A stretch of 35,919 nucleotides of DNA, taken from NCBI GenBank assembly GCA_005778215.1, contig SXKB01000194.1:1-35919 (forward strand). Direction: 5' to 3'. A program made the position numbers and the translations under genes. Source of the stretch: Actinomycetota bacterium. GTDB taxonomy: Bacteria > Actinomycetota > Acidimicrobiia > Acidimicrobiales > Ilumatobacteraceae. This document shows, piece after piece, positions 1,765 to 26,367 of the stretch. Each line of letters opens with the position of its first letter. Positions within the stretch are counted from its first letter, which is position 1. The notes beneath the pieces were generated by a model. The model did no database searches, was not told where the DNA came from, and saw only the letters and a program-made list of their open reading frames with translations.

Positions 1765-2102
1765 ATGAGCTGTCTGCCGGCGACGTCGATCGCATCTTCC
1801 ACGCACTCGCCGACGCGACGCGTCGCGACATCCTTCGACAGGTGATGATCACCGAGTCGTCGGTGTCGGCACTGGCCCGGCACTACCCGGTCAGCCTCAC
1901 GGCGGTGCAGAAGCACGTCGCCGTGCTGGAGGAGGCGGGGCTCGTGTCGAAGGAACGCCGGGGCAGGGAACTGCGCGTCCGCGCCGAGATCACCGCGGTG
2001 CGCCGGGCGATGCAACTGCTCGAACAGTACGAGGCCGTGTGGCGCGGCCGTGTGGATCGGATGAGCGCAGTGCTCGACGAACATGAAGGAGTCCCCCGAT
2101 GA
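1755..2102 (+). CDS. ArsR-family winged-helix transcriptional regulator
   Basis: A 115-residue protein. The N-terminal half is a typical ArsR helix-turn-helix: IFHALADATRRDILRQV, then VSALARHYPVSLTAVQKHVAVLEEAGLVSKERRGRE, which carries the recognition helix and wing. No cysteine metal-site motif is seen, so a metal sensor is unlikely. The start at 1755 is set by the TAnnnT box 8 nt upstream; the longer ORF in the track is read-through from upstream. The stop overlaps the next ATG (ATGA), coupling it to an SRPBCC/AHSA1 protein. ArsR-AHSA1 pairs are common in actinobacteria, where the regulator usually represses the pair. The ligand is unknown. Confidence 0.88.
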   Translation: MVVDELSAGDVDRIFHALADATRRDILRQVMITESSVSALARHYPVSLTAVQKHVAVLEEAGLVSKERRGRELRVRAEITAVRRAMQLLEQYEAVWRGRVDRMSAVLDEHEGVPR

Positions 2103-2590
2103 CCGTCACCGCCGTGGCCCGAGACCACTCGGCCCTCACGCTCACCGTCGACGCGACGTTCGATGCGGCACCCGCCCGGGTGTGGTTGCTGTGGGCCGAC
2201 CCTCGTCAGCTCGAGCGCTGGTGGGGGCCGCCCGTGTACCCGGCCACGTTCGTCGAGCACCAGCTCGTCGTCGGAGGTCGCTGCACGTACTTCATGACCG
2301 GCCCCGAGGGCGACCAGCACCACGGCTGGTGGGAGGTCGAGTCGGTCGACCCCGGTCGTTCGTTCGAGGTGCGCGACGGTTTCGCCGACGGCGAGGGCAA
2401 CGTGAACCCCGATCTGCCGGTGACGCGCATGCGGGTGGAGCTGAGCGACCGCGGCGACGGTGGCACGAAAGTGCGCATCGTGTCCACGTTCGCCACGCTC
2501 GAGCAGCTCGAGCAGCTCGTGGCGATGGGCATGGAGGAAGGTCTGCAGGTGGCGATGGGCCAGATGGACGCCGTCCTCGCCGACGCCTGA
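2099..2590 (+). CDS. SRPBCC/AHSA1-domain protein
   Basis: A 163-residue single-domain protein of the SRPBCC (Bet v1-like, AHSA1) fold. Visible family features are FDAAPARVWLLWADPRQLERWWGP near the N-terminus, the glycine-containing strand GGRCTYFM, and the long C-terminal helix beginning after FATLEQLEQL. Its ATG overlaps the stop of the ArsR gene (ATGA), and GAAGGAG lies 8 nt upstream, so it is translated from the arsR transcript. The fold makes a hydrophobic pocket for lipids or small aromatic compounds. Its substrate, and whether it is an enzyme or a binding protein, cannot be told from sequence. Confidence 0.85.
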   Translation: MTVTAVARDHSALTLTVDATFDAAPARVWLLWADPRQLERWWGPPVYPATFVEHQLVVGGRCTYFMTGPEGDQHHGWWEVESVDPGRSFEVRDGFADGEGNVNPDLPVTRMRVELSDRGDGGTKVRIVSTFATLEQLEQLVAMGMEEGLQVAMGQMDAVLADA

Positions 2591-2598
2591 CCGGATGT

Positions 2599-2673
2599 TC
2601 TGGCGGCGTTCCGTCTCGGTTTCCGGGACGGAACGCCGCCAGATGCCGATTCGGGACGGTTCACGCCCAGATG
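2599..2673 (+). repeat. 75-bp palindromic intergenic repeat, copy A (REP/BIME-like)
   Basis: Its first 45 nt form a 17-bp perfect stem (TCTGGCGGCGTTCCGTC with its complement) around TCGGTTTCCGG, which can itself pair further. A 28-nt tail follows that repeats the right arm (CGGGACGGTTCACGCCCAGA). Copies B (6328-6402, inverted) and C (18760-18834) align without gaps; A and C agree at 61 of 75 positions by hand count. It sits between convergent genes, where the hairpin could also end transcription from both sides. Confidence 0.85.
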
Positions 2674-2674
2674 G

Positions 2675-4585
2675 TCAGGCGTAGAGGTGGGCGCGGAGGT
2701 CGAACGTGAGCGGGGTGCCGTCGGCGCGTAGGTGGCGGGCGTTGTAGCCGCGCGGGTGCACGGCGATGGCGATCTGCTCGGTGGCCAGGTCGCTGGGCGT
2801 GGCGAACCCGAACAGCCCGTTCGCATCGGTGCGGCCACGGGCCAGCTCGCGGGGCTCGCGACCGGGCAGGTGTGCCGACACCGTCACCTCGGCACCTTCC
2901 ACCGGCGCGTGCTCGCCCGCCTCGTCGGCGTCGTGGCGCACCACGGTGAGCCGCGCCGTGCGATGGTCGGGCTTGCGCTCCACGGTGACCTCCACGTCAC
3001 GCAGCCAGATCATCGGCTCGGCCACGATCGCTTCGAAGCCGGCGTCGAGCACGTGCGCCGCCGCATTCGCGTTCAGCGCGACGTCCTGCGGCGCCATGCC
3101 GTGATCGGCCGACACCACGAACAGCGTGTCGTCGAACAGACCGCGACGGTCGAGTTCGGCGAGCACGTGGCCGATGCGCCGATCGGTCTCCTCCAGCGCG
3201 TCGACCAGGCCGTCGTGGTGCGGGCCGTACTCGTGCCCGGCGCCGTCGGTGACCGCGAGCTCGTGGTACACGAACGACGGCACCGGCAGGTCGTCACGGC
3301 GCAGCAGTTCGATGATCTGCGCGAGGCCGCGGGTGTCGAGCAGCGACTCGCTGGCCACCGCCGGGTGCTCGTCGGCCCACCGCGGATTCATGTCGGCGGC
3401 GAACTCGATGGTGAGTTCCTTCACCGCGACGCGGTCGCACAGGTTGCGGCCCTCCAGCACGGCGTGCTTCGCCGAACGACCGAACGGTGCGTGGATGGCC
3501 ACGGTGAGCGCCTCCGGGTCGCGCCGGTGGAACGCCTCGTGCAGGCTCTCCACCGAGCGGCTCGCGAACCGTTCGGTGCCCACCTGCAGGCCCTGCGGCG
3601 ACACGGTCTCGTTCGTCTCGCGCAGGTGGTACGTGGGGTTCACCACGCCGTGGTGGCCACACCAGGTGCCGGTGACGATGGACGTATGGCTGGGCCAGGT
3701 GATGGACGGGAAGTTCACCATCGCACCGCCGGCCAGCACGGCGGCGCGTTCCCACAGACGATGCAGGTTCGGGAACCGGTACCGGTCGTGATGGATGCGC
3801 TCCTCCAGCTCGGTCTGGTGCATGCCGTCCATCAGGAACACGTACAGCCGTTGCGGTGTCGGCGCCTCGTGGTCGAGCACCTCGTGCAGCACACGCCCGT
3901 CCTGCCGGGCGAGGTACACGTCGGACGACGGCGTACCGGAGGCATCGACACCTTCGATGGTGGGAAACCCGAGCGCGTGCAGCGCGGTGGGCGCGATGTC
4001 GATGGAACGCGCCGCCAACTCGTGCCGGCCGACACGCACGTTCGGACCGCTGAACCACAGTGGCGCACGCGCCTGGCGCACGTGGAGCGCACCGTGCATT
4101 CCTGGCTGGTTGCCGGCGCACCAGTCCTTCGGCGACACCGCGAGGTCGGGCGCGTTGGGCGAGTCGAAGAGCTGCGCGACGCGCTCGTACCCGAACGGGT
4201 AGGTCTGGTGCTCGGGAGCGATGAAGCGTCGCTCGGCGTGGCGGGCGTCGAACCCGGAGTCGGCCGCCGCGGCACGCTCGAGCGCGAGCGTGTTCAGCGC
4301 CAACGGATCCTGCGCGGCGATGGGGTTCTCGCCCACCACCTCGAGCACCTCGAACTGCAGCGCACCGTCGTCGTCGACGAGGCGACGGAACCGCACCATG
4401 CCGCGCTGCGACCACACCTCGTACGCACCGGTGTCGGCGTCGGCACCTCGCCAGGTGAGCACCAGGTCGACCTGGTCCCCCACCACGGGGTCGGTGAGCA
4501 GCGCCGCGATGGCACGGTCGCCCGACTCGTCCTGTTGGGGATGGAGACCCTGCCCACCCAGCCGTTCCGGTCCGTGCACGCGCAT
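2675..4585 (-). CDS. Type I phosphodiesterase / alkaline-phosphatase-superfamily protein with permuted motif order
   Basis: A 636-residue protein with the metal and catalytic motifs of nucleotide pyrophosphatase/phosphodiesterases: FLMDGM (Asp ~253), FPSITWPSHTSIVTG (nucleophile Thr ~296), TDGAGHEYGP (Asp ~447, His ~451) and SADHGM (~494). In the usual order the last metal His and the DIAPTxxxLLG helix follow DHG. Here the equivalent segment (GNQPGMHGALH, His ~164; APLWFSGPNVR; SIDIAPTALHALGF) lies before the DGM, so the domain looks circularly permuted. After DHGM comes a ~140-residue beta-rich tail with a GRTDANGLFGFATP motif like carboxypeptidase-regulatory or Ig-type domains. No signal peptide is seen. 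The start at 4585 is chosen from the TACTGT box 7 nt upstream; the track start at 5098 runs into the neighbouring gene. Substrate unknown. Confidence 0.82.
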   Translation of the reverse strand: MRVHGPERLGGQGLHPQQDESGDRAIAALLTDPVVGDQVDLVLTWRGADADTGAYEVWSQRGMVRFRRLVDDDGALQFEVLEVVGENPIAAQDPLALNTLALERAAAADSGFDARHAERRFIAPEHQTYPFGYERVAQLFDSPNAPDLAVSPKDWCAGNQPGMHGALHVRQARAPLWFSGPNVRVGRHELAARSIDIAPTALHALGFPTIEGVDASGTPSSDVYLARQDGRVLHEVLDHEAPTPQRLYVFLMDGMHQTELEERIHHDRYRFPNLHRLWERAAVLAGGAMVNFPSITWPSHTSIVTGTWCGHHGVVNPTYHLRETNETVSPQGLQVGTERFASRSVESLHEAFHRRDPEALTVAIHAPFGRSAKHAVLEGRNLCDRVAVKELTIEFAADMNPRWADEHPAVASESLLDTRGLAQIIELLRRDDLPVPSFVYHELAVTDGAGHEYGPHHDGLVDALEETDRRIGHVLAELDRRGLFDDTLFVVSADHGMAPQDVALNANAAAHVLDAGFEAIVAEPMIWLRDVEVTVERKPDHRTARLTVVRHDADEAGEHAPVEGAEVTVSAHLPGREPRELARGRTDANGLFGFATPSDLATEQIAIAVHPRGYNARHLRADGTPLTFDLRAHLYA

Positions 4586-4592
4586 GCGGCGA

Positions 4593-4598
4593 ACAGTA
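4593..4598 (-). promoter_or_regulatory. Leaderless -10 box (TACTGT) of the phosphodiesterase gene
   Basis: On the minus strand TACTGT lies 7 nt before the ATG at 4585, in the 17-bp gap after the alpha-glucosidase stop. It gives the gene its own start and supports 4585 over the longer ORF. Confidence 0.55.
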
Positions 4599-4602
4599 CC
4601 CG

Positions 4603-6276
<1,674 letters not shown>

Positions 6277-6327
6277 GGTCGCCTGTCCCACCCACGACAC
6301 CGAGCCCCTCGACGGTGCGCTCCCCGG

Positions 6328-6402
6328 TTTCTGGGCGTGTTCCGTTCCGAAACGGCTTCTGGCGCTGATTCGTCCCGGACTCCGGGACGAATCCCGGCCA
6401 GA
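6328..6402 (-). repeat. 75-bp palindromic intergenic repeat, copy B (inverted)
   Basis: Read on the minus strand it starts TCTGGCCGGGATTCGTCCC and ends CACGCCCAGAAAC, and aligns without gaps to copies A and C. The stem GATTCGTCCCGG/CCGGGACGAATC is perfect, with compensating changes relative to copy A (ATTCG/CGAAT here, TTCCG/CGGAA there). It lies between the dead methyltransferase and the alpha-glucosidase promoter. Confidence 0.82.
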
Positions 6403-6421
6403 TGCGCCGCCCGGCGAGGGT

Positions 6422-6890
6422 TCAGCGCTTGCGCAGCACGACGAGGAAGTGGTCGCCCGTGCTGCGGAAGCCCGGCCGCGACACCGTCACGTCGTCGAGC
6501 TTCGCCATCGTGCGGAACGTGCGCGAACTCCCACGGGCACCAGCGACCGATCACCGTGAACAGCGCGTGGCCGCCAGGCCGCATCAACTCACCGAGCTGT
6601 CGCGCCGTGTCGCCGAGATCGGGCACGCAGTTCAACGGCCCGAAGTTCGAGTACGCCACGTGGAACAGGGGCGACAGCGTGGTGGTGATGCCGGTGCCGC
6701 AGCCGAGGTCGATGAGGTTCGCGGGGCCGGTGGGCAGCAACCCGTCGATCTGCTGCCACACGATGTCGCGCATGCGTTGGATGAGATCGTTGTTGCCCTG
6801 CGGACCGTCCTAGGTGGGCGCCACGCTGTCGAACGCGAGCGCGGTCTCGTCGGGCATCTGCTCGAGCGCGGGTCTGGCGGGCGTGCTCAC
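6422..6890 (-). pseudogene. Class I SAM-dependent methyltransferase, decayed
   Basis: Pieces of one methyltransferase are spread over two frames. The N-terminus (MPDETALAFDSVAPT) is cut by TAG at 6810-6812 where a Tyr codon is expected (SVAPT-stop-DGPQGNN). The frame then continues to motif I, LIDLGCGTG, and runs almost directly into HVAYSNFGPLNCVPDL, so the stretch between motifs I and IV is missing. After RWCPWEFAHVP a frameshift moves the last ~25 codons (PGFRSTGDHFLVVLRKR) to another frame, ending at TGA 6422. The likely start is the GTG at 6890, overlapping the stop of the radical SAM gene (GTGA). At least three lesions make a working enzyme unlikely. Confidence 0.8.
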
Positions 6891-8377
6891 TCCGAGAGCA
6901 CCGGAATGCGCAGACGCGTGGGGTTCGGATTCCGCGCAGTCACCTCGGCGGCGCGCAGATCGATCCAGCGCTGCTCGACGCGAGCGCGGTGCTCGTCGAG
7001 CGGCAGATCGGGCAGCATCGCGTGCTGGGCCCTGCTGAGGCCGGCCTCGCGACGGCGCAGGTCGAGCAGGTCGTGCAGGCTGAGGTGCAACTCGCGATAG
7101 ATCTCGGTGGGGTACGTGCCGTGGAACATCATCGCCAGGTCGCCGGAGTGCGCCCAGTTGGCCTGCTCGTCGAGTTCCAGCTTCACCATCTCGTGGAAGC
7201 GGGTACCGGGCAGCGGGTAGCTGACGCTCACGCCGATGTCGTCGGGGAGCAGTTCGCTCACCAGCGCGACGGTGCTCTCGATGTCGGCCCAGGTCTCGCC
7301 CGGGTACCCGAACTGGATGAAGAAGCACGCCCGGATGCCGTGCCGGGCGAGGCCCGCTCGGGCGGTGCGGATCTGCTCGACCGTGATCTCCTTGTCCATC
7401 GCGTCGAGCACCCGCTGGCTACCGCTCTCGGCACCCAACCACACCTCGTCGCAGCCCGAACGGGCGAGCGCGTCGAGCGCCTGCTCGTTCATCAGATCGC
7501 AACGGCTCTGCATGGTGAACGGGATGCGCACGCCGGCGGCCTCCACGCGGTCGGCGAATGCAGCGAGCCAGTCGCTGCGCAGGCCGAAGATGTCGTCGGC
7601 GAACCACAGGTGGTCGGGCTGGTAGGTGCGCGCGAGATGGATGACCTCGTCGGCCACCTCCGCCGCGGACCGCATCGAGTAGCGCTGACCCCAGATGGGC
7701 TTCGCGCACCAGTTGCACGAGTACGGGCAGCCGCGGGTGGACACGAGGTTGAGCGAGAACTTGCCGTGCGCCGACACCCAGGCGTCGCGATAGGCGGCGA
7801 TGTCGACCAGGTCGCGTGCCGGCTGGCCGAACACGTCGGGATGGCGCTCGATGCTGCGGCGGCCGTTGGAGTGCACGGTGCCGTCGACGAGCGTGGCGAT
7901 ACCGGCGATGTCGGCGAGGCTCTGGTGCGGGTCGTCGCCCGTCCACCGCGCGAGCACGTCGCGCATCGTGTGCTCGCCTTCACCGAGGAAGCACGCCTCG
8001 GCGCCGGCCTCGAGGTACACCTCGGCGTGGTCGGTGACGTCGGCCCCGCAGGCCGCCACTCGCGCGCCGGCCTCGCGGGCCATGCCGATCATGGTGATCG
8101 CTGCCTCACGCATGCGCGTGAGGCACATCTTCGACAGGAAGTTGAAGTTGTCCTCGAACAGCACCACCACGTCGGGCCGGTGTTGTTCGATCGCGGCCTG
8201 GAACTCGGACTCGTCGGCCGCGAGCATCGCGTCGAACACCGCCACGTCGAAGCCGTCGGTGCGCAGCACGGTGGCCGCGTGCAACGTGTTGAGCGGCGGG
8301 TACGGCTTCATCTTGGCGTGCTGCTTCGGGTCGAGCTGCAGGAAGTAGGAGTGAGCGAGGAGCACTTTGGTGGTCAT
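6887..8377 (-). CDS. B12-binding-domain radical SAM protein
   Basis: A 496-residue protein. Residues ~1-150 look like the cobalamin-binding domain found at the N-terminus of class B radical SAM enzymes (PPLNTLHAATVLRTDGFDVAVFDAM, VVVLFEDNFNF). The radical SAM core follows, with the cluster motif CPYSCNWC (CxxxCxxC) in STRGCPYSCNWCAKPIWGQRY, then GAESGSQRVLDAM and FFIQFGYPGE. Such enzymes do methylations, ring contractions and related chemistry; the substrate is not evident. The start at 8377 (MTTKVLLAHSYF) has GGAG about 13 nt upstream; the longer track ORF reads into the glycosyltransferase gene. Downstream, the methyltransferase remnant begins within its stop codon, and upstream lies a GT4 gene in the same direction, which suggests one pathway. 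Confidence 0.87.
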   Translation of the reverse strand: MTTKVLLAHSYFLQLDPKQHAKMKPYPPLNTLHAATVLRTDGFDVAVFDAMLAADESEFQAAIEQHRPDVVVLFEDNFNFLSKMCLTRMREAAITMIGMAREAGARVAACGADVTDHAEVYLEAGAEACFLGEGEHTMRDVLARWTGDDPHQSLADIAGIATLVDGTVHSNGRRSIERHPDVFGQPARDLVDIAAYRDAWVSAHGKFSLNLVSTRGCPYSCNWCAKPIWGQRYSMRSAAEVADEVIHLARTYQPDHLWFADDIFGLRSDWLAAFADRVEAAGVRIPFTMQSRCDLMNEQALDALARSGCDEVWLGAESGSQRVLDAMDKEITVEQIRTARAGLARHGIRACFFIQFGYPGETWADIESTVALVSELLPDDIGVSVSYPLPGTRFHEMVKLELDEQANWAHSGDLAMMFHGTYPTEIYRELHLSLHDLLDLRRREAGLSRAQHAMLPDLPLDEHRARVEQRWIDLRAAEVTARNPNPTRLRIPVLSE

Positions 8378-17677: not shown

Positions 17678-17683
17678 AGGCTA
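17678..17683 (-). promoter_or_regulatory. Leaderless -10 box (TAGCCT) of the GNAT-xseA-xseB operon
   Basis: TAGCCT on the minus strand lies 7 nt before the ATG at 17670. It overlaps the stop codon of rmuC upstream. Confidence 0.6.
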
Positions 17684-18721
17684 CGCCAGCAGCCCTGCCT
17701 CGGACCCGGTGTCGAGTCCGGTGTCGAGGGCGGTGTCGACCTTGATGTGCCGTTCCTGGCGGAGCGCCTCGAGTCGCTGCAGCGGACGCTCGAGCTGGCG
17801 CCGTCGGGGGCCGGCCAGTTCGTCGACGCCGTTCACCAACGTGTCGAGCTGCTTCTTCACCTTCTCGACCTGGCCCTGGTACTTGCTCCACTGGGCGGCG
17901 AACTGCCCGAGCAGGGCGAGCATCTCGCGACTGGTCTGCTCGAGCCGGAAGTTGTCGAACGCCTGGCGGATGACGCCCAGGAACGCGAACAGGGTGAGCG
18001 GCGAGCACAGCACCACCCGTTCGCGCATCGCCTCGTCGACCAGTTGCGGCGCATGCTCGTGGATGAACCCGACGATGGACTCGTTGGGTACGAACATCAG
18101 CACGTTGTCGACCGCGGGTCGAGCGTCGACCTGCGCGTAGTCACGGCGGGCGAGCTCCTTCACGTGGCCCCGCACGGCACGCAGGAACGCCTCACGGTGC
18201 GCGGTGCGTTCGGCCTCGGTGGTGGCCTGCAACGAGGCGAGGTACGAGTCGATCGGGAACTTCACGTCCATGAACATCACGTGCTGGTCGGGCATGAAGA
18301 ACGTGAAGTCGGGAATGACCCGACCGTCGCCCGACACGGCGGTGTGCTTCTGGTAGTTGACGTTGGGCAACAGCCCGGCCAGCCGGAGCACGTCGTCGGC
18401 CATGCGCTCACCCCACTGGCCGCGAGCGTTGGTGTGGGCGAGTGCTTCGCGCAGGCTGTTGGTGGTGCCGTACAGCGCATGCGTGACCTCGGCCTGGGTG
18501 CGCATCGAGCGGTCGATCTCGCCGAACTGCTGTGCCGTGTACTGGCCCAGGCGCTGCACGGCCTCGTGCAGACGACGCAGCTCGGCCTCGGTGGCCGGCG
18601 GCAGCGCAGTGGGCACGGCCTCGGCACCGGGCACGGCACGGGGACGGGTGGCCAGCACCCAGACGAGCGCAGCCACGGCCGCGACCAGCAACACCACCAG
18701 CAGGATCTCCATGCCGGTCAC
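17681..18721 (-). CDS. rmuC: RmuC-family DNA recombination protein
   Basis: A 346-residue protein. One N-terminal membrane segment (MEILLVVLLVAAVAALVWVLA) is followed by a helical stretch. The RmuC nuclease-like domain then holds GQWGERMADDVLRLAGL, VIPDFTFFMPDQHVMFMDVKFPIDSY, VLMFVPNESIVGFI and SPLTLFAFLGVIRQAFDNFRL. The D and DVKFP residues match the PD-(D/E)xK-type core assigned to this family. In other bacteria RmuC limits rearrangements at inverted repeats. The start is GTG 18721 or ATG 18712; neither has a clear TAnnnT or Shine-Dalgarno sequence. Confidence 0.9.
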   Translation of the reverse strand: MTGMEILLVVLLVAAVAALVWVLATRPRAVPGAEAVPTALPPATEAELRRLHEAVQRLGQYTAQQFGEIDRSMRTQAEVTHALYGTTNSLREALAHTNARGQWGERMADDVLRLAGLLPNVNYQKHTAVSGDGRVIPDFTFFMPDQHVMFMDVKFPIDSYLASLQATTEAERTAHREAFLRAVRGHVKELARRDYAQVDARPAVDNVLMFVPNESIVGFIHEHAPQLVDEAMRERVVLCSPLTLFAFLGVIRQAFDNFRLEQTSREMLALLGQFAAQWSKYQGQVEKVKKQLDTLVNGVDELAGPRRRQLERPLQRLEALRQERHIKVDTALDTGLDTGSEAGLLA

Positions 18722-18759: not shown

Positions 18760-18834
18760 TCTGGCGCCGATCCGTCCCGGTTTCCGGGACGAATCCCTGC
18801 CAGAAGCCGAACTGGGAAGAATCACGCCCAGATG
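18760..18834 (+). repeat. 75-bp palindromic intergenic repeat, copy C
   Basis: It starts TCTGGCGCCGATCCGTCCCGG and ends CACGCCCAGATG. It matches copy A at 61 of 75 positions without gaps. The stem TCCGTCCCGG/CCGGGACGAA is kept. It lies between the rmuC start and the ABC transporter stop, both on the minus strand, so it may terminate rmuC-upstream transcripts. Confidence 0.85.
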
Positions 18835-18856: not shown

Positions 18857-20716
18857 TCAGTCGAGGACGGCGTCGCCGGCGCGCACCTGGGCGGCGTAGG
18901 CACCGTCGAGGCGCAGCAGCTCGTCGTGGGTGCCGGTCTCCACCACGCGACCGTTGTCGAGCACCACGATGCGGTCGGCGTCGCGAATGGTGGACAGGCG
19001 GTGGGCGATCACCAGCGCAGTGCGCCCCTCGAGCGCGCCCTCGAGCGCCGCCTGCACCGCCGCCTCGTTCTCGTTGTCGAGGTGGCTCGTGGCCTCGTCG
19101 AGGATCATCACGGCCGGGTTCTTCAGCAGCAGGCGGGCGATGGCCAGGCGCTGCTTCTCGCCGCCCGACATGCGGTAGCCGCGCTCGCCCACCACCGTGT
19201 CGTACCCGTCGGGCAGGTCGGCGATCATGTCGTGGATGCGCGCACCGCGGCACGCCGCGTCGAGCTCGGCGATGGTGGCGTCGGGCTTCGCGTAGCGCAG
19301 GTTGGCACCGATGGAGTCGTGGAACAGGTGCGGGTCCTGGCTCACCACGCCGATGGCTTCACGCAGGCTGTGCTGGGTGAGGTCGCGCACGTCGTGGCCG
19401 TCGAGCAGCACCGCGCCACCGGTGACGTCGTACAGCCGCGGGATGAGGCCCGACAGCGTGGTCTTGCCGGAGCCCGAGGAACCCACGAGCGCCACGGTCT
19501 CGCCGGGTCGCACCACCAACGACACGCCCTGCAGCACGTCGCGATCGGGGTCGGTGCCGCCGAGCGCGTTGGGGGCCTCGAGCGACCGCACCGTCACATC
19601 GGCCGCGGCCGGATAGCGGAACCACACGTCGCGGAACTCCACCAGACCGGTGGGGTCGACGAGGTCGATGGCACCCGGACGGTCCTGGATGTTCTCGGGG
19701 GCGTCGAGCACCTCGAACACCCGCTCGAAGCTCACCATCGCGGTCATCAGATCGACACGGGCGTTGGTGAGACCGGTGAGCGGTTGGTACACCCGGGTGA
19801 CCAGTGCGGCCAGCGCCACCAGCGTGCCGGGGCTGATGTCGCCGTCGACCACCAGCAGGGCGCCGACGCCGTAGATGGCGGCCGCGCCGAGTGCACCCAC
19901 CAGGCCGAGCGCCACGAAGAACACCCGGCCGTACATCGCTGCGCGCACGCCGGTGTCGCGCACCTTCGCCGCACGACCGGAGAACATGTCGACCTCGTCG
20001 GTCTGACGGCCGAACAGCTTCACCAGCAGCGCACCGGCCACGTTGAACCGCTCGGCCATCTGGTTGTTCATCTCGGCGTTGGTGGCCATGTTCTGGCGCT
20101 GGATGTCCTGCAGGCGGCGACCCACCCGCTTGGCGGGGATGATGAACATCGGCAGCACCACCAACGCGAGCAGCGTGAGCCGCCATTCGAGCGCCGCCAT
20201 CGCCGCGAGCGTGGTGACCAGCACCACGACGTTGCTCACCACGCTGCCGAGCGTGCTGGTGACGGCGGTCTGTGCGCCGACCACGTCGTTGTTGAGACGG
20301 CTGGTGAGTGCGCCCGTCTGGGTGCGCGTGAAGAACGCCACCGGCATGCGCTGCACCTTCGCGAACAACGCGACACGGAGGTCGTAGATGAGACCCTCAC
20401 CGATGCGCGCGCTGCACCAACGCTGCACGATGGCGAGGCCGGCGTCGACCAGCGCGGCAGCCACCACCAGCGAGGCCAGCATCACGATGGCGCCGCGGTC
20501 GCTCTCGGGAATGGCCACGTCGATGATGCGGCGGAATGCGAACGGTGCCACCAGCTCCACCAGCGCGGCCGCCACGATGGCCGCGAGGAACAGGAAGATC
20601 ATCGACTTGTACGGCCGGGCGAACTGCCAGGCACGGCCGAGCGAACGACGCTGCAGACGCTTGCCCTTCACCGCCTCGGCATCGCCGGGCATCATCATGT
20701 GGGGACCCATCCGCAT
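18857..20716 (-). CDS. ABC exporter, fused membrane and ATPase domains
   Basis: A 619-residue half-size exporter of the MsbA/ABCB type. Residues ~35-330 hold the six-helix membrane domain, including TRTQTGALTSRLNNDVVGAQ. The ATPase has Walker A VGSSGSGKTT, Q-loop VVSQDPHLFHD, signature MSGGEKQRLAIARLLL, Walker B VMILDEATSHLD and the switch IAHRLSTI. All key residues are intact. It probably works as a homodimer that pumps lipids, drugs or peptides outward. The start at 20716 follows TATCCT by 7 nt. It is divergent from two lipoprotein peptidases with promoters 12 bp apart, which may mean shared control. The substrate is unknown. Confidence 0.93.
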   Translation of the reverse strand: MRMGPHMMMPGDAEAVKGKRLQRRSLGRAWQFARPYKSMIFLFLAAIVAAALVELVAPFAFRRIIDVAIPESDRGAIVMLASLVVAAALVDAGLAIVQRWCSARIGEGLIYDLRVALFAKVQRMPVAFFTRTQTGALTSRLNNDVVGAQTAVTSTLGSVVSNVVVLVTTLAAMAALEWRLTLLALVVLPMFIIPAKRVGRRLQDIQRQNMATNAEMNNQMAERFNVAGALLVKLFGRQTDEVDMFSGRAAKVRDTGVRAAMYGRVFFVALGLVGALGAAAIYGVGALLVVDGDISPGTLVALAALVTRVYQPLTGLTNARVDLMTAMVSFERVFEVLDAPENIQDRPGAIDLVDPTGLVEFRDVWFRYPAAADVTVRSLEAPNALGGTDPDRDVLQGVSLVVRPGETVALVGSSGSGKTTLSGLIPRLYDVTGGAVLLDGHDVRDLTQHSLREAIGVVSQDPHLFHDSIGANLRYAKPDATIAELDAACRGARIHDMIADLPDGYDTVVGERGYRMSGGEKQRLAIARLLLKNPAVMILDEATSHLDNENEAAVQAALEGALEGRTALVIAHRLSTIRDADRIVVLDNGRVVETGTHDELLRLDGAYAAQVRAGDAVLD

Positions 20717-20753: not shown

Positions 20754-22349
20754 GTGCGCCGCATCGCCCTCCTCCTCGTGACGTGCAGTGCGTTGCTGGT
20801 CGCCTGCGGCGACGGCATCGACGAGGGCGCGAACGAAGGCCGCGGCACGCGCGGCACCATCGACGGGGTGGCACTCGGGCCACCCGAGAGCGTCGACATC
20901 ACCGAACCACCCGCCACCACCGACCCCGGATTCCCCGACTTCCCCGACGACACCCGACCCGATCTGCCGCCGCTGCCCGGCGACGAGCTGTTCGACTGGG
21001 AGCCCTTCGGTGACGGCCTGGAGGACGGGTACCTCGAGGTGCCCCTCGACTGGAACGAGCCCGACGGTGACACGATCAGCCTGTACGTGGTGCGGCACCG
21101 CGCGGTCGATCCCGATCGGCGCATCGGCACGCTGCTGGTGAACCCGGGTGGGCCCGGCTTCGGCGGCAGCGGTCTGGCCTACGACGCCGAGAGGATCTAC
21201 GGCCAGGACATCCTCGACCGGTTCGACATCATCGGCTGGGACCCGCGTGGCACCGGGTACAGCGAGCCGTACGTCGACTGCATCGACGACTACGACGCGT
21301 ACTTCGCGCTCGACTCGTCGCCCGACACCGCCGAGGAGCGCACGGCGCTGGTGGAGGGCGCCGGCGAGTTCGTCGAGCAGTGCCGCCGCAAGAACCTGCT
21401 GCTCCTCCCGCACCTCAGCACGGCCGACTCCGCCCGCGACATGAATGCCATCCGCGCCGCACTGCAGGAGGAGCAGATCAGCTACTTCGGGTTCAGCTAC
21501 GGCAGCGAGCTCGGTGCCACCTGGGCGACGATGTTCCCCGACACGGTGCGCGCCGCCGTGCTCGACGGCGCGGTCGACCCCACCGTCGGGTACTTCGACC
21601 AGAACGTGCAACAGGCCGCGGGGTTCGAAGCGGCGTTCACCACCTTCCTCGCGCAGTGCAGCGCCGACCCGGCGTGCGCGTTCCACAACGACGGCGACGC
21701 GGAGGGCGCGTTCGACGAGGTGCATGCCACCCTCGAGGCCACGCCCATCGCCGGCGACGATCCCGACCGCCCGAAGGTCACCGACGGCGTGTTGGTCACC
21801 GCCATCGCCCAGTCGATGTACGACCGTGCGATGTGGCCCGAACTCGAGCAAGCGCTCGCCGATCTGCAGGACGGCGACGGCACCGCGATCGTGGAGCTGT
21901 ACGACCTGTACTACGGCTACTTCGACGGCGAGTGGGACGACGGCCTCGAGGCCTACTTCGCGATCAGCTGCCTCGACGACCCGGGCTCCACCGGGCCCGA
22001 CGAGTTGTTCGCACGCGAGGCGGAGTTGGCGGCGGCAGCACCGCGACTGGGCCGCAGTTGGTTGGGCGAGTTGACCATCTGCTCCAAGTGGCTCGACGGC
22101 CCCGCACCCAGCGTCACCATCACCGGCGCCGGCGCCGGGCCGATCCTGGTGATGGGCACCACGGGCGATCCGGCGACACCGCTCGACAGCACCCGACGCA
22201 TGGCCCAGGCGTTGGAGGACGGCCACCTGGTGGTGGTGGCCGCCGATCAACACACCGGCTACGGCGTGAACCGATGCGGCAACGACGTGGTCGACGCGTA
22301 CCTGCTCGACCCCGACGCCCCGCTGGACGACGAGATCGATTGCACGTGA
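20754..22349 (+). CDS. Lipoprotein alpha/beta-hydrolase peptidase (S33, tripeptidyl-aminopeptidase-like)
   Basis: A 531-residue exported protein starting at GTG 20754. The lipoprotein signal is ALLLVTCSALLVAC, with the acylated Cys near residue 18. A Pro/Asp-rich linker leads to the catalytic domain: LVNPGGPGFGGSG, GWDPRGTGYSEP, nucleophile elbow GFSYGSELG (Ser ~248), Asp in GTTGDPATPL and His in DQHTGYG. This layout matches the secreted tripeptidyl aminopeptidases of actinobacteria (TAP-like C-terminus). It likely trims peptides outside the membrane. The track ORF starting at 20388 lies antisense to the exporter and is wrong. A paralogue follows 14 bp downstream. Confidence 0.9.
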   Translation: MRRIALLLVTCSALLVACGDGIDEGANEGRGTRGTIDGVALGPPESVDITEPPATTDPGFPDFPDDTRPDLPPLPGDELFDWEPFGDGLEDGYLEVPLDWNEPDGDTISLYVVRHRAVDPDRRIGTLLVNPGGPGFGGSGLAYDAERIYGQDILDRFDIIGWDPRGTGYSEPYVDCIDDYDAYFALDSSPDTAEERTALVEGAGEFVEQCRRKNLLLLPHLSTADSARDMNAIRAALQEEQISYFGFSYGSELGATWATMFPDTVRAAVLDGAVDPTVGYFDQNVQQAAGFEAAFTTFLAQCSADPACAFHNDGDAEGAFDEVHATLEATPIAGDDPDRPKVTDGVLVTAIAQSMYDRAMWPELEQALADLQDGDGTAIVELYDLYYGYFDGEWDDGLEAYFAISCLDDPGSTGPDELFAREAELAAAAPRLGRSWLGELTICSKWLDGPAPSVTITGAGAGPILVMGTTGDPATPLDSTRRMAQALEDGHLVVVAADQHTGYGVNRCGNDVVDAYLLDPDAPLDDEIDCT

Positions 22350-22351
22350 CC

Positions 22352-22357
22352 TAGCCT
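22352..22357 (+). promoter_or_regulatory. Leaderless -10 box (TAGCCT) of the second peptidase gene
   Basis: TAGCCT lies 6 nt before the ATG at 22364, in the 14-bp gap between the two paralogues, so the second copy can be transcribed alone. Confidence 0.6.
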
Positions 22358-22363
22358 GCGTGC

Positions 22364-23893
22364 ATGCGCGGTCGTCCCCTCCTTCTGCTCGCCGCACTCA
22401 CCGCCGTCGCTGCGTGCAGCAGCGGGTCGTCGGTCACCAGCGGCACGTCCACCGACGAGCCCGGCACCACCGGCCAGGCACCCGACACGTCCACCGACAC
22501 GTCCGACGGCGGCGGCGCCACCGCCACCATCGAGTGGCGCGCCGACCCCGACGACCCGAGCATCGAGACCGGCGTGCTGGAGGTGCCGGTCGACCAGGAC
22601 GACCCGTCGAAGGGTTCGTTCCAGCTGTACCTCGCCCGCCACCTGGCGCCGGCCGACTCGCGCACCGGCAGCCTGCTGGTGAACCCCGGCGGCCCCGGCT
22701 TCGGCGGCACCGACCTCGCGGTGTTCGCCGATCAGATCTACAGCAAGGCGCTGCTCGACTCGTTCGACATCGTGGCCTGGGACCCACGCGGCACCGGCCT
22801 CTCCGAACCGGCGCTCGACTGCATCGACGACTACGACCGCTACTACACCGGCTACGACATCACCCCCGACGACGACGCCGAGCGCCAGCAGATCATCGAC
22901 CTCGCGCAGGAGTTCACCGAGCGGTGCATTGGCCAGAACGCCGACATCCTGCAACACATCGGTACGAACAACTCGGCCCGCGACATGGACGCCATTCGGC
23001 AGGCACTCGGCGAGGACCGCATCAGCTACTTCGGGTTCAGCTACGGCAGTGAGCTTGGCGCTGTGTGGGCCACCCTGTTCCCCGACACCGTGCGCGCCGC
23101 CGTGCTCGACGGCGCCGCCGACCCGAACGCCGACTTCGTCGAGTCGGGCCTGCAGCAATCGGCCGGGTTCGAACTCGCGCTCACCAACTTCCTCGCCCGA
23201 TGCAGCGGCGACCCCACCTGTGCCTTCCACCACGACGGCGACGCCGAGGCCGCGTTCGACGCGCTGATGGCCGATCTCGACGAGCAGCCCATCCCCACCA
23301 CCGACGGTCGGCCCGACCTCACCCGCAGCATGGCCATCACCGCCACAGCGCAGGCCATGTACAGCGACCAGCTCTGGCCGTCACTGGAAGCCGGACTCGC
23401 GGCCGCCGAGCAGGGCGACGGGGCCGGACTGCTCGACCTGTTCGACCAGTACTACGCCCGCCAGGCCGACGGCACATGGGACAACTCGCTCGAGGCGTTC
23501 CAGGTGATCTCGTGCATGGACATGCCCGAGCGGCTCACCGTGGAGGAGGACGACGCCACGGCCGCGCAGTTCGCCGAGGCGGCGCCGCGGTTCTCGCCCG
23601 GCACCACCGGCAGCTACTTCTGCACGTTCTTCCCGCCCACCGAGGAGCCGGTCGTGAGCGTCACCGGTGCGGGTGCCGGACCCATCCTGGTGATGGGCAC
23701 CACCGGCGACCCGGCCACGCCGCTCGAGTCGTCGCGAGCCATGGCCGCCGCGCTCGAGGACGGCCGGCTGGTCATCGTCGACGCCGAGGGCCACACCGGG
23801 TACCTGCCGGGTTCGTGCAGCGGCGACGTGATCGACGCCTACCTGCTCGACCCCACCGGTGCTGCGCCCGACGACGGCACCGAGTGCAACTGA
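22364..23893 (+). CDS. Lipoprotein alpha/beta-hydrolase peptidase, tandem paralogue
   Basis: A 509-residue paralogue of the preceding gene. The signal LLLLAALTAVAACSSG has its lipid Cys near residue 19, then a Thr/Asp-rich linker. The catalytic domain repeats the same landmarks: LLVNPGGPGFGGTDL, AWDPRGTGLSEP, GFSYGSELG (Ser ~226), GTTGDPATPL and EGHTGYLPGSC. Pairs of Cys (FLARCSGDPTC, SCMD, YFCTF) suggest disulfides, as expected outside the cell. The linkers differ far more than the catalytic cores, so the duplication is not recent. It probably cleaves a related set of peptides. Confidence 0.9.
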   Translation: MRGRPLLLLAALTAVAACSSGSSVTSGTSTDEPGTTGQAPDTSTDTSDGGGATATIEWRADPDDPSIETGVLEVPVDQDDPSKGSFQLYLARHLAPADSRTGSLLVNPGGPGFGGTDLAVFADQIYSKALLDSFDIVAWDPRGTGLSEPALDCIDDYDRYYTGYDITPDDDAERQQIIDLAQEFTERCIGQNADILQHIGTNNSARDMDAIRQALGEDRISYFGFSYGSELGAVWATLFPDTVRAAVLDGAADPNADFVESGLQQSAGFELALTNFLARCSGDPTCAFHHDGDAEAAFDALMADLDEQPIPTTDGRPDLTRSMAITATAQAMYSDQLWPSLEAGLAAAEQGDGAGLLDLFDQYYARQADGTWDNSLEAFQVISCMDMPERLTVEEDDATAAQFAEAAPRFSPGTTGSYFCTFFPPTEEPVVSVTGAGAGPILVMGTTGDPATPLESSRAMAAALEDGRLVIVDAEGHTGYLPGSCSGDVIDAYLLDPTGAAPDDGTECN

Positions 23894-26039: not shown

Positions 26040-26078
26040 GGGCACGGAATGTTGCGCCGGGCGCAACATTCCGTGCCC
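26040..26078 (-). terminator. 39-nt perfect palindrome after tRNA-Ser(GGA), probable terminator
   Basis: GGGCACGGAATGTTGCGCC and its exact complement form a 19-bp stem with a single central G. It lies 5 nt past the tRNA 3' end on the minus strand. No U run follows, so it is either a factor-assisted terminator or a separate palindromic element. A partial copy of one arm (GGCAGGGAATGTCGCC) lies at 26200-26215 on the other side of the tRNA. Confidence 0.6.
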
Positions 26079-26259: not shown

Positions 26260-26367
26260 GGTGACGGTCGGGCCCTGTGCGACGTGCGTCCGGGAATCAG
26301 GTCAGGACCGGGAGGTAGCAGCCTTCAACGGTGCCGCTCGTGTGCCGCAGGCCACCTGGCCGTCACC
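26260..26367 (+). ncRNA. ffs: Signal recognition particle RNA, small bacterial type (4.5S)
   Basis: The conserved Ffh-binding hairpin is present: CAGGTCAGGACCGGGAGGTAGCAGCC, with the asymmetric loop and tetraloop region of bacterial SRP RNA. The ends pair as GGTGACGG/CCGTCACC, and intermediate segments pair along the single long rod (GGGCC/GGCC, GTGCG/CGTGC). No Alu domain is seen, so it is the short form. Ends are set by pairing and are accurate to a few bases. The RNA works with Ffh and FtsY in membrane protein targeting. Confidence 0.92.

Follow-up and report, generated by a model that had tools for sequence, protein, structure and literature searches.

A dispersed three-module palindromic repeat linked to an AbiEi-Vsr/EDxHD-type nuclease gene in Actinomycetota

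Introduction

REP-like palindromes are among the commonest repeats in bacteria. RAYTs are the sole class of enzymes firmly tied to REPs, and the repeat families that lack a RAYT are an open question (PMC3733652). In the REP/REPIN-RAYT systems (REPtrons), short palindromes are dispersed between genes, near gene ends, and form composite units of inverted modules; the enzyme gene lies between two inverted copies that match the repeat of its own genome, and the stems carry compensatory changes (PMC2817692; PMC3733652). While the element described here shares these traits, the REPtron enzyme is a Y1/HUH transposase and its counterpart here is an AbiEi-Vsr/EDxHD nuclease; in addition, the palindromes are longer (~45 bp, arranged 21-3-21), a third module is present and no conserved GTAG head is apparent by eye. 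CGTC-tagged REPs are likewise REP-like repeats that do not bracket a RAYT and were reported without a dedicated transposase (PMC3733652), but their stems are shorter (8-9 bp) and they occur in other phyla. MITEs, like the element, are short repeats that encode no protein and whose movement is presumed to occur in trans; however, neither a target-site duplication nor terminal inverted repeats shared with a known IS are established for the element, and its putative mover is not a DDE transposase.

Two protein families bear on the enzyme. AbiEi of the type IV AbiE systems binds two 23-bp inverted repeats, 3 bp apart, in its own promoter (PMC3985639). The N-terminal ~200 residues of the nuclease resemble AbiEi in fold, and the 23-3-23 operator of AbiEi (PMC3985639) is close to the 21-3-21 palindrome of the element, whereas the fusion to a nuclease and the dispersal of the palindromes set the present system apart; no AbiEii toxin gene was noticed next to the locus. 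The C-terminal domain resembles the EDxHD/Vsr-like nucleases (I-Bth0305I, Vsr, 3hrl) by fold and by sequence profile, but differs from them in its AbiEi-type fusion, in being bracketed by palindromes and in its position outside introns (no intron was seen). No paper linking DUF559/AbiEi nucleases to REPs was found in open-access text.

Architecture of the element

The window, that is, the whole stretch of 35,919 nucleotides analysed, is one contig (C166) of a draft genome of 3.5 Mb in 356 contigs, which is 75% complete. Among named organisms, the closest to it are uncultured actinobacteria of the Acidimicrobiaceae/Ilumatobacteraceae type. It holds three copies of the element, and alignment bears out the coordinates given for them earlier and the absence of gaps over 75 bp. 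The copies and the genes that adjoin copies A and C are as follows.

2599..2673, plus strand: copy A of the 75-bp element; module 1 at 2599-2619, loop at 2620-2622, module 2 (inverted) at 2623-2643, module 3 (same direction as module 2) at 2653-2671
6328..6402, minus strand: copy B; module 1 at 6402-6382, loop at 6381-6379, module 2 at 6378-6358, module 3 at 6348-6330
18760..18834, plus strand: copy C; module 1 at 18760-18780, loop at 18781-18783, module 2 at 18784-18804, module 3 at 18814-18832
2099..2590, plus strand: AHSA1-family gene, left of copy A, with its stop codon 8 bp ahead of the element
2675..4585, minus strand: phosphodiesterase/pyrophosphatase-family gene, right of copy A, with its stop codon 3 bp past module 3
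17681..18721, minus strand: rmuC, adjoining copy C
18857..20710, minus strand: ABC-transporter gene, adjoining copy C

The gap filled by copy A is bounded by the stop codons of two convergent genes, which end at 2590 and 2675. Copy B lies directly past the stop codon of a frame-disrupted methyltransferase gene, with the start of an alpha-amylase gene 65 bp further on, and copy C has the stop of the ABC-transporter gene (18857) on one side and the rmuC start (18721) on the other. The methyltransferase-like frame (6403-6887, with an LDLGCGTG motif) contains stops and frame changes and is either a pseudogene or the product of assembly errors. Similarly, the alpha-amylase gene (4603-6264) is split into two ORFs, matching Pfam positions 183-446 and 1-176, by a frameshift or an assembly error. 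The element density of the window (three copies, about 0.5 expected) reflects chance.

Two features of the window lie apart from the element. At 21112-23893, two adjoining genes for TAP-like alpha/beta hydrolases, with a DNA identity of about 75%, form a tandem duplication. A perfect inverted repeat of 19 bp around a 1-base centre occupies 26040-26078, between a gene and a tRNA-like sequence and close to the small SRP RNA (26266-26364).

Folding of copies A, B and C agrees with the proposal that modules 1 and 2 form a long hairpin. The 21-3-21 hairpin of copy A pairs perfectly (RNA -51.8 kcal/mol, z -7.6), and the stems of copies B and C have internal mismatches (z -4.3 and -4.2). Module 3 was found, as suggested, to repeat module 2 directly; a stem formed by modules 1 and 3 was also considered and rejected, being weaker than that of modules 1 and 2. 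The differences between stems are indeed compensated, one column pair showing 13 double changes within the genome. Among 49 copies drawn from this genus and from two further ones, compensatory double changes occur in 17 of the 21 stem pairs, 91.9% of the stem cells are paired, and covariation reaches 0.465, against 0.153 +/- 0.012 in shuffled alignments; shifting the partner by one column destroys the signal. The variable core changes with the genome, for example GCGTGATTC here, GAAGGATC in G003 and G009, ACAGGAATC in G006 and GGCTGATTC in G001. As judged by eye, the alignments contain no conserved GTAG head, and CGTC lies inside the stem of many copies and not as an unpaired tag.

Copy number and placement

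A genome-wide search with a covariance model, which the earlier note had proposed for finding further copies, revealed a dispersed family of about 53. Full-length elements occupy 52-53 places in the 3.5 Mb draft by blastn, covariance model and profile, which for a 75%-complete assembly falls short of the hundreds that had been anticipated; the whole genome perhaps holds ~70. The 19-base module pattern has 87 matches, against none for the reversed control. Since nearly all of them lie within complete three-module units, the triple module is the unit, and essentially no solo modules or hairpins were found elsewhere in the genome by pattern or genome-wide search. Three-module units thus dispersed, with compensatory change in their stems, agree with the earlier view that the paired structure is selected or copied as a unit. 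No Rfam family covers the element.

The copies are confined to non-coding gaps, as had been predicted: none of the 53 lies inside a called gene, though 93% of the sampled DNA is coding (genes were called with a home-made caller, and one copy overlaps a doubtful ORF by 33 nt). Among the 51 copies with both neighbours, 25 lie in convergent, 20 in tandem and 6 in divergent gaps. The convergent excess (25/50, against 44/285 for the other gaps of the same DNA) corresponds to an odds ratio of 5.5 (p = 3e-7). In most copies, one end of the element is 3-30 bp from a stop codon, and the tandem gaps that hold a copy are wide, resembling the ends of transcription units. As dispersed intergenic palindromes lying mostly near gene ends, the copies are placed as REPs and REPINs are.

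Such a distribution, together with the strong hairpin, would also suit a bidirectional terminator or a stabiliser of mRNA 3' ends that is maintained by selection, in which case the link to the nuclease described below would be secondary. The convergent enrichment, the nearness to stop codons and the wide tandem gaps all speak for such a role; nevertheless, we consider it unlikely. Most convergent gaps have no copy, and two genomes of the genus lack the element entirely. No terminator-like site was found in positions 2400-7000 of the window, which cover copies A and B, and no T-tract lies near either copy, so that the pattern of an intrinsic terminator (a GC-rich hairpin followed by a T-tract) is absent from both. 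Moreover, module 3 and the bracketing of the nuclease gene would be left unexplained, and placement at gene ends, which is general for REPs (PMC3733652), would also result from the purging of other insertions.

Turnover between relatives

Comparison of orthologous gaps for presence or absence of the element gave a positive result for copy C. The rmuC/ABC-transporter gap is empty in two relatives (L147 and L148), filled by the element here and occupied by a different palindrome in two others (L149 and L150), this being a comparison of one gap that is too diverged to show a target-site duplication. The palindrome of L149 and L150 is of the GTGGGCCGTA-CGGCCCACTT type and resembles that of a nuclease of genome G007. 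About five of the sampled element positions are common to more than one species, which indicates that spread is slow.

A nuclease gene between inverted copies

The earlier note had likened the element to REPIN/BIME repeats and had pointed to a RAYT (Y1 transposase) gene flanked by the same hairpin. A search for Y1_Tnp (PF01797, E<=0.01) gave no match in the 15 genomes of the genus, several of which are 97-99% complete, and did give matches in control genomes. A RAYT/Y1 transposase is therefore rejected as the mover, being absent from the element's own genome and from all 15. The gene found instead between inverted copies, on another contig of the same draft, encodes a nuclease.

Contig C73:10088-11026 (outside the window): AbiEi-DUF559 nuclease gene, single-copy, with a ~313-aa product, lying between two inverted element copies

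The two inverted copies, ~1 kb apart, bracket this one gene here and also in genome G013. Another pair ~1 kb apart, on contig C326, brackets an ordinary membrane-type gene and not a nuclease. The product of the bracketed gene matches DUF559 and MTES_1575 and, weakly, AbiEi_4. A profile built from three bracketed nuclease proteins detected a high-scoring, sharply separated orthologue in 11 of the 13 genomes that carry the element and in neither G004 nor G011, the two that lack it; in the other two element carriers, G002 and G007, no orthologue was detected. Inverted elements, with the hairpin side inward, lie on each side of the orthologues visible within contigs. The flanking copies resemble the dispersed ones of the genome that they lie in: mean identity is 0.689, which 0 of 20,000 permutations reached (permuted identity 0.572 +/- 0.019), with the dispersed copies sampled unevenly, 2 to 28 per genome. 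One of the two G006 nuclease copies (L233) has no match to the sampled dispersed family, and one G006 copy is flanked by palindromes without module 3. An enzyme gene bracketed by repeats that match those of its genome is the architecture of a REPtron, here with several of the flanking copies partial. The comparison with REPIN/BIME thus holds for dispersal, intergenic sites, compensatory change and an enzyme gene between inverted copies, and fails for the enzyme, which is not a RAYT. Because the defining RAYT is absent, we do not file the element as a REPIN, though it probably works like one.

In the syntenic loci, the neighbours of the nuclease are a solute-binding-protein gene and a cyclophilin gene. 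The locus is inverted in some genomes and located elsewhere in G001 and G006; mostly it is inherited in place, and the nuclease is thus not a hopping gene. The picture is of a slowly evolving enzyme that would act in trans. Many genomes (L227-L242) have a short string in common (CGGCAAAA / TTTGCCG), placed after the upstream element and ahead of the nuclease start, which is possibly a promoter or operator.

The AlphaFold2 model of the nuclease is confident, with a mean pLDDT of 91.6. In Foldseek searches, the best PDB match of the N-terminal ~200 residues is AbiEi (6y8q, E 5e-6), and the C-terminal part matches I-Bth0305I, a homing endonuclease (3r3p, E 7e-4), followed by 3hrl and Vsr; sequence profiles agree with this assignment, and AbiEi is the only PADLOC match. 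E209, D236, H254 and D264 are invariant, or nearly so, over 53 members. We take these residues to be those of the EDxHD motif, and such invariant residues are expected for the EDxHD/Vsr type. Fold and conserved residues together place the C-terminal domain in the Vsr/EDxHD superfamily; the N-terminal region is DNA-binding and of the AbiEi-type winged-helix kind.

Given this N-terminal domain, the dispersed copies might be operator sites and the AbiEi-type domain a regulator whose regulon the repeats mark. AbiEi proteins do bind inverted repeats in their own promoter (PMC3985639), and in several genomes the nuclease gene has one of its flanking elements immediately upstream. Nonetheless, we judge this very unlikely: promoters are avoided (6/51 copies are divergent and 25/51 convergent, most of them <=30 bp from a stop codon), a copy is found on both sides of the nuclease gene, and copy number and sequence turn over fast between species.

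Other nucleases and their palindromes

Among 151 genomes of the family, 43 carry a relative of the nuclease at the thresholds used, as do 67 among 297 of the phylum. Such nuclease genes, whether in the genus, the family or the phylum, often lie between unrelated palindromes of their own. For an inverted-repeat score, the left flank was compared with the reverse-complemented right flank; rmuC and 253 ordinary genes served as negative controls, low-scoring nuclease paralogues being unsuitable because they carry their own palindromes. Orthologues, with 29 loci, had a median score of 54 and more distant paralogues, with 17 loci, one of 53, whereas the median for rmuC (64 loci) was 20.5. Scores of at least 36 were obtained at 11 of 25 phylum-level nuclease loci, against 1 of the 253 ordinary genes, the latter being the chance pair on C326. 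A per-side palindrome score separated the loci less well (p = 1e-4) than did comparing left with right, since perfect pairing is missing from many of the flanking palindromes.

Where clear palindromes occur at other nuclease loci, they are mostly 41-51 bp long with a centre of 3-5 bases. When 11 nuclease-flanking palindromes were used as a joint query against 12 genomes, all matches, among those listed, lay in the palindrome's own genome. Each genome had 4 to 71 matches, a figure that includes both strands and thus exceeds the number of places; a control genome gave one weak match. The genome of the window has a second AbiEi-DUF559 gene (L251, on G000 contig C18), with palindrome arrays of its own (GAGGTCGCGACGAATCCACCG-TTC-...) and 14 matches in the genome. 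At L265, L270 and L272, in other genera, the nuclease genes are flanked by tandem palindrome arrays and not by single copies.

These families bear on whether a missed or lost RAYT, or another transposase, spread the element, and the nuclease came to lie between copies by historical accident. The mostly ancestral, syntenic nuclease locus would fit such a history, as would the copies in G002 and G007, which lack an orthologue. It is, however, highly improbable, given the absence of Y1_Tnp from the 15 genomes and the rarity of such bracketing at ordinary genes, and because an accident would not recur, whereas paralogous nucleases with unrelated palindromes show the same layout and have dispersed families of their own.

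Discussion

The element is probably a dispersed three-module REP within a two-part system, which comprises a bracketed gene for an AbiEi-Vsr/EDxHD nuclease and copies scattered over the genome. The element and the nuclease gene are linked. The fold of the protein, its conserved active-site residues, the 23-3-23 geometry known from AbiEi and the one gap that is filled here and empty in relatives all suggest that the nuclease mobilises the element. Most likely, the AbiEi-type region binds the palindrome and the nuclease nicks it. In the manner of AbiEi on its 23-3-23 operator, the N-terminal region would hold the 21-3-21 palindrome of ~45 bp, and the nuclease may nick or cut there, with the palindrome extruded as a cruciform or folded as a single-stranded hairpin. 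Repair, template switching or strand transfer could then copy the element into new sites. Copies landing in genes or within operons would be lost, leaving survivors at gene ends.

That the palindromes are instead sites of a restriction-like or mismatch-repair nuclease or of a defence system, kept for that role and not for mobility, accords with the Vsr/DUF559 fold, the PADLOC match to AbiEi only and the reading of Caulobacter VsrA as a mismatch-repair nuclease (PMC12907096), but is scarcely credible, as the locus that the element brackets in its own genome had no methylase gene and no AbiEii toxin gene in view next to it, and neither a repair nor a defence role predicts a separate palindrome family for each paralogue.

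Beyond this genus, the evidence leans towards the AbiEi-Vsr/EDxHD (DUF559) nucleases being a second, independently evolved class of REP-mobilising enzymes, common in Actinomycetota, each recognising its own palindrome family and spreading it; they may explain some of the REP families that lack a RAYT. If this is true, a non-homologous nuclease with the same layout of one enzyme and one palindrome would be a case of convergent evolution, RAYT-less repeats would gain a testable candidate enzyme, and a large group of proteins now annotated only as DUF559 or AbiEi-like would gain a role. The pairing of element and nuclease suggests a second route, unrelated to REP/RAYT, by which small palindromes spread in bacteria.
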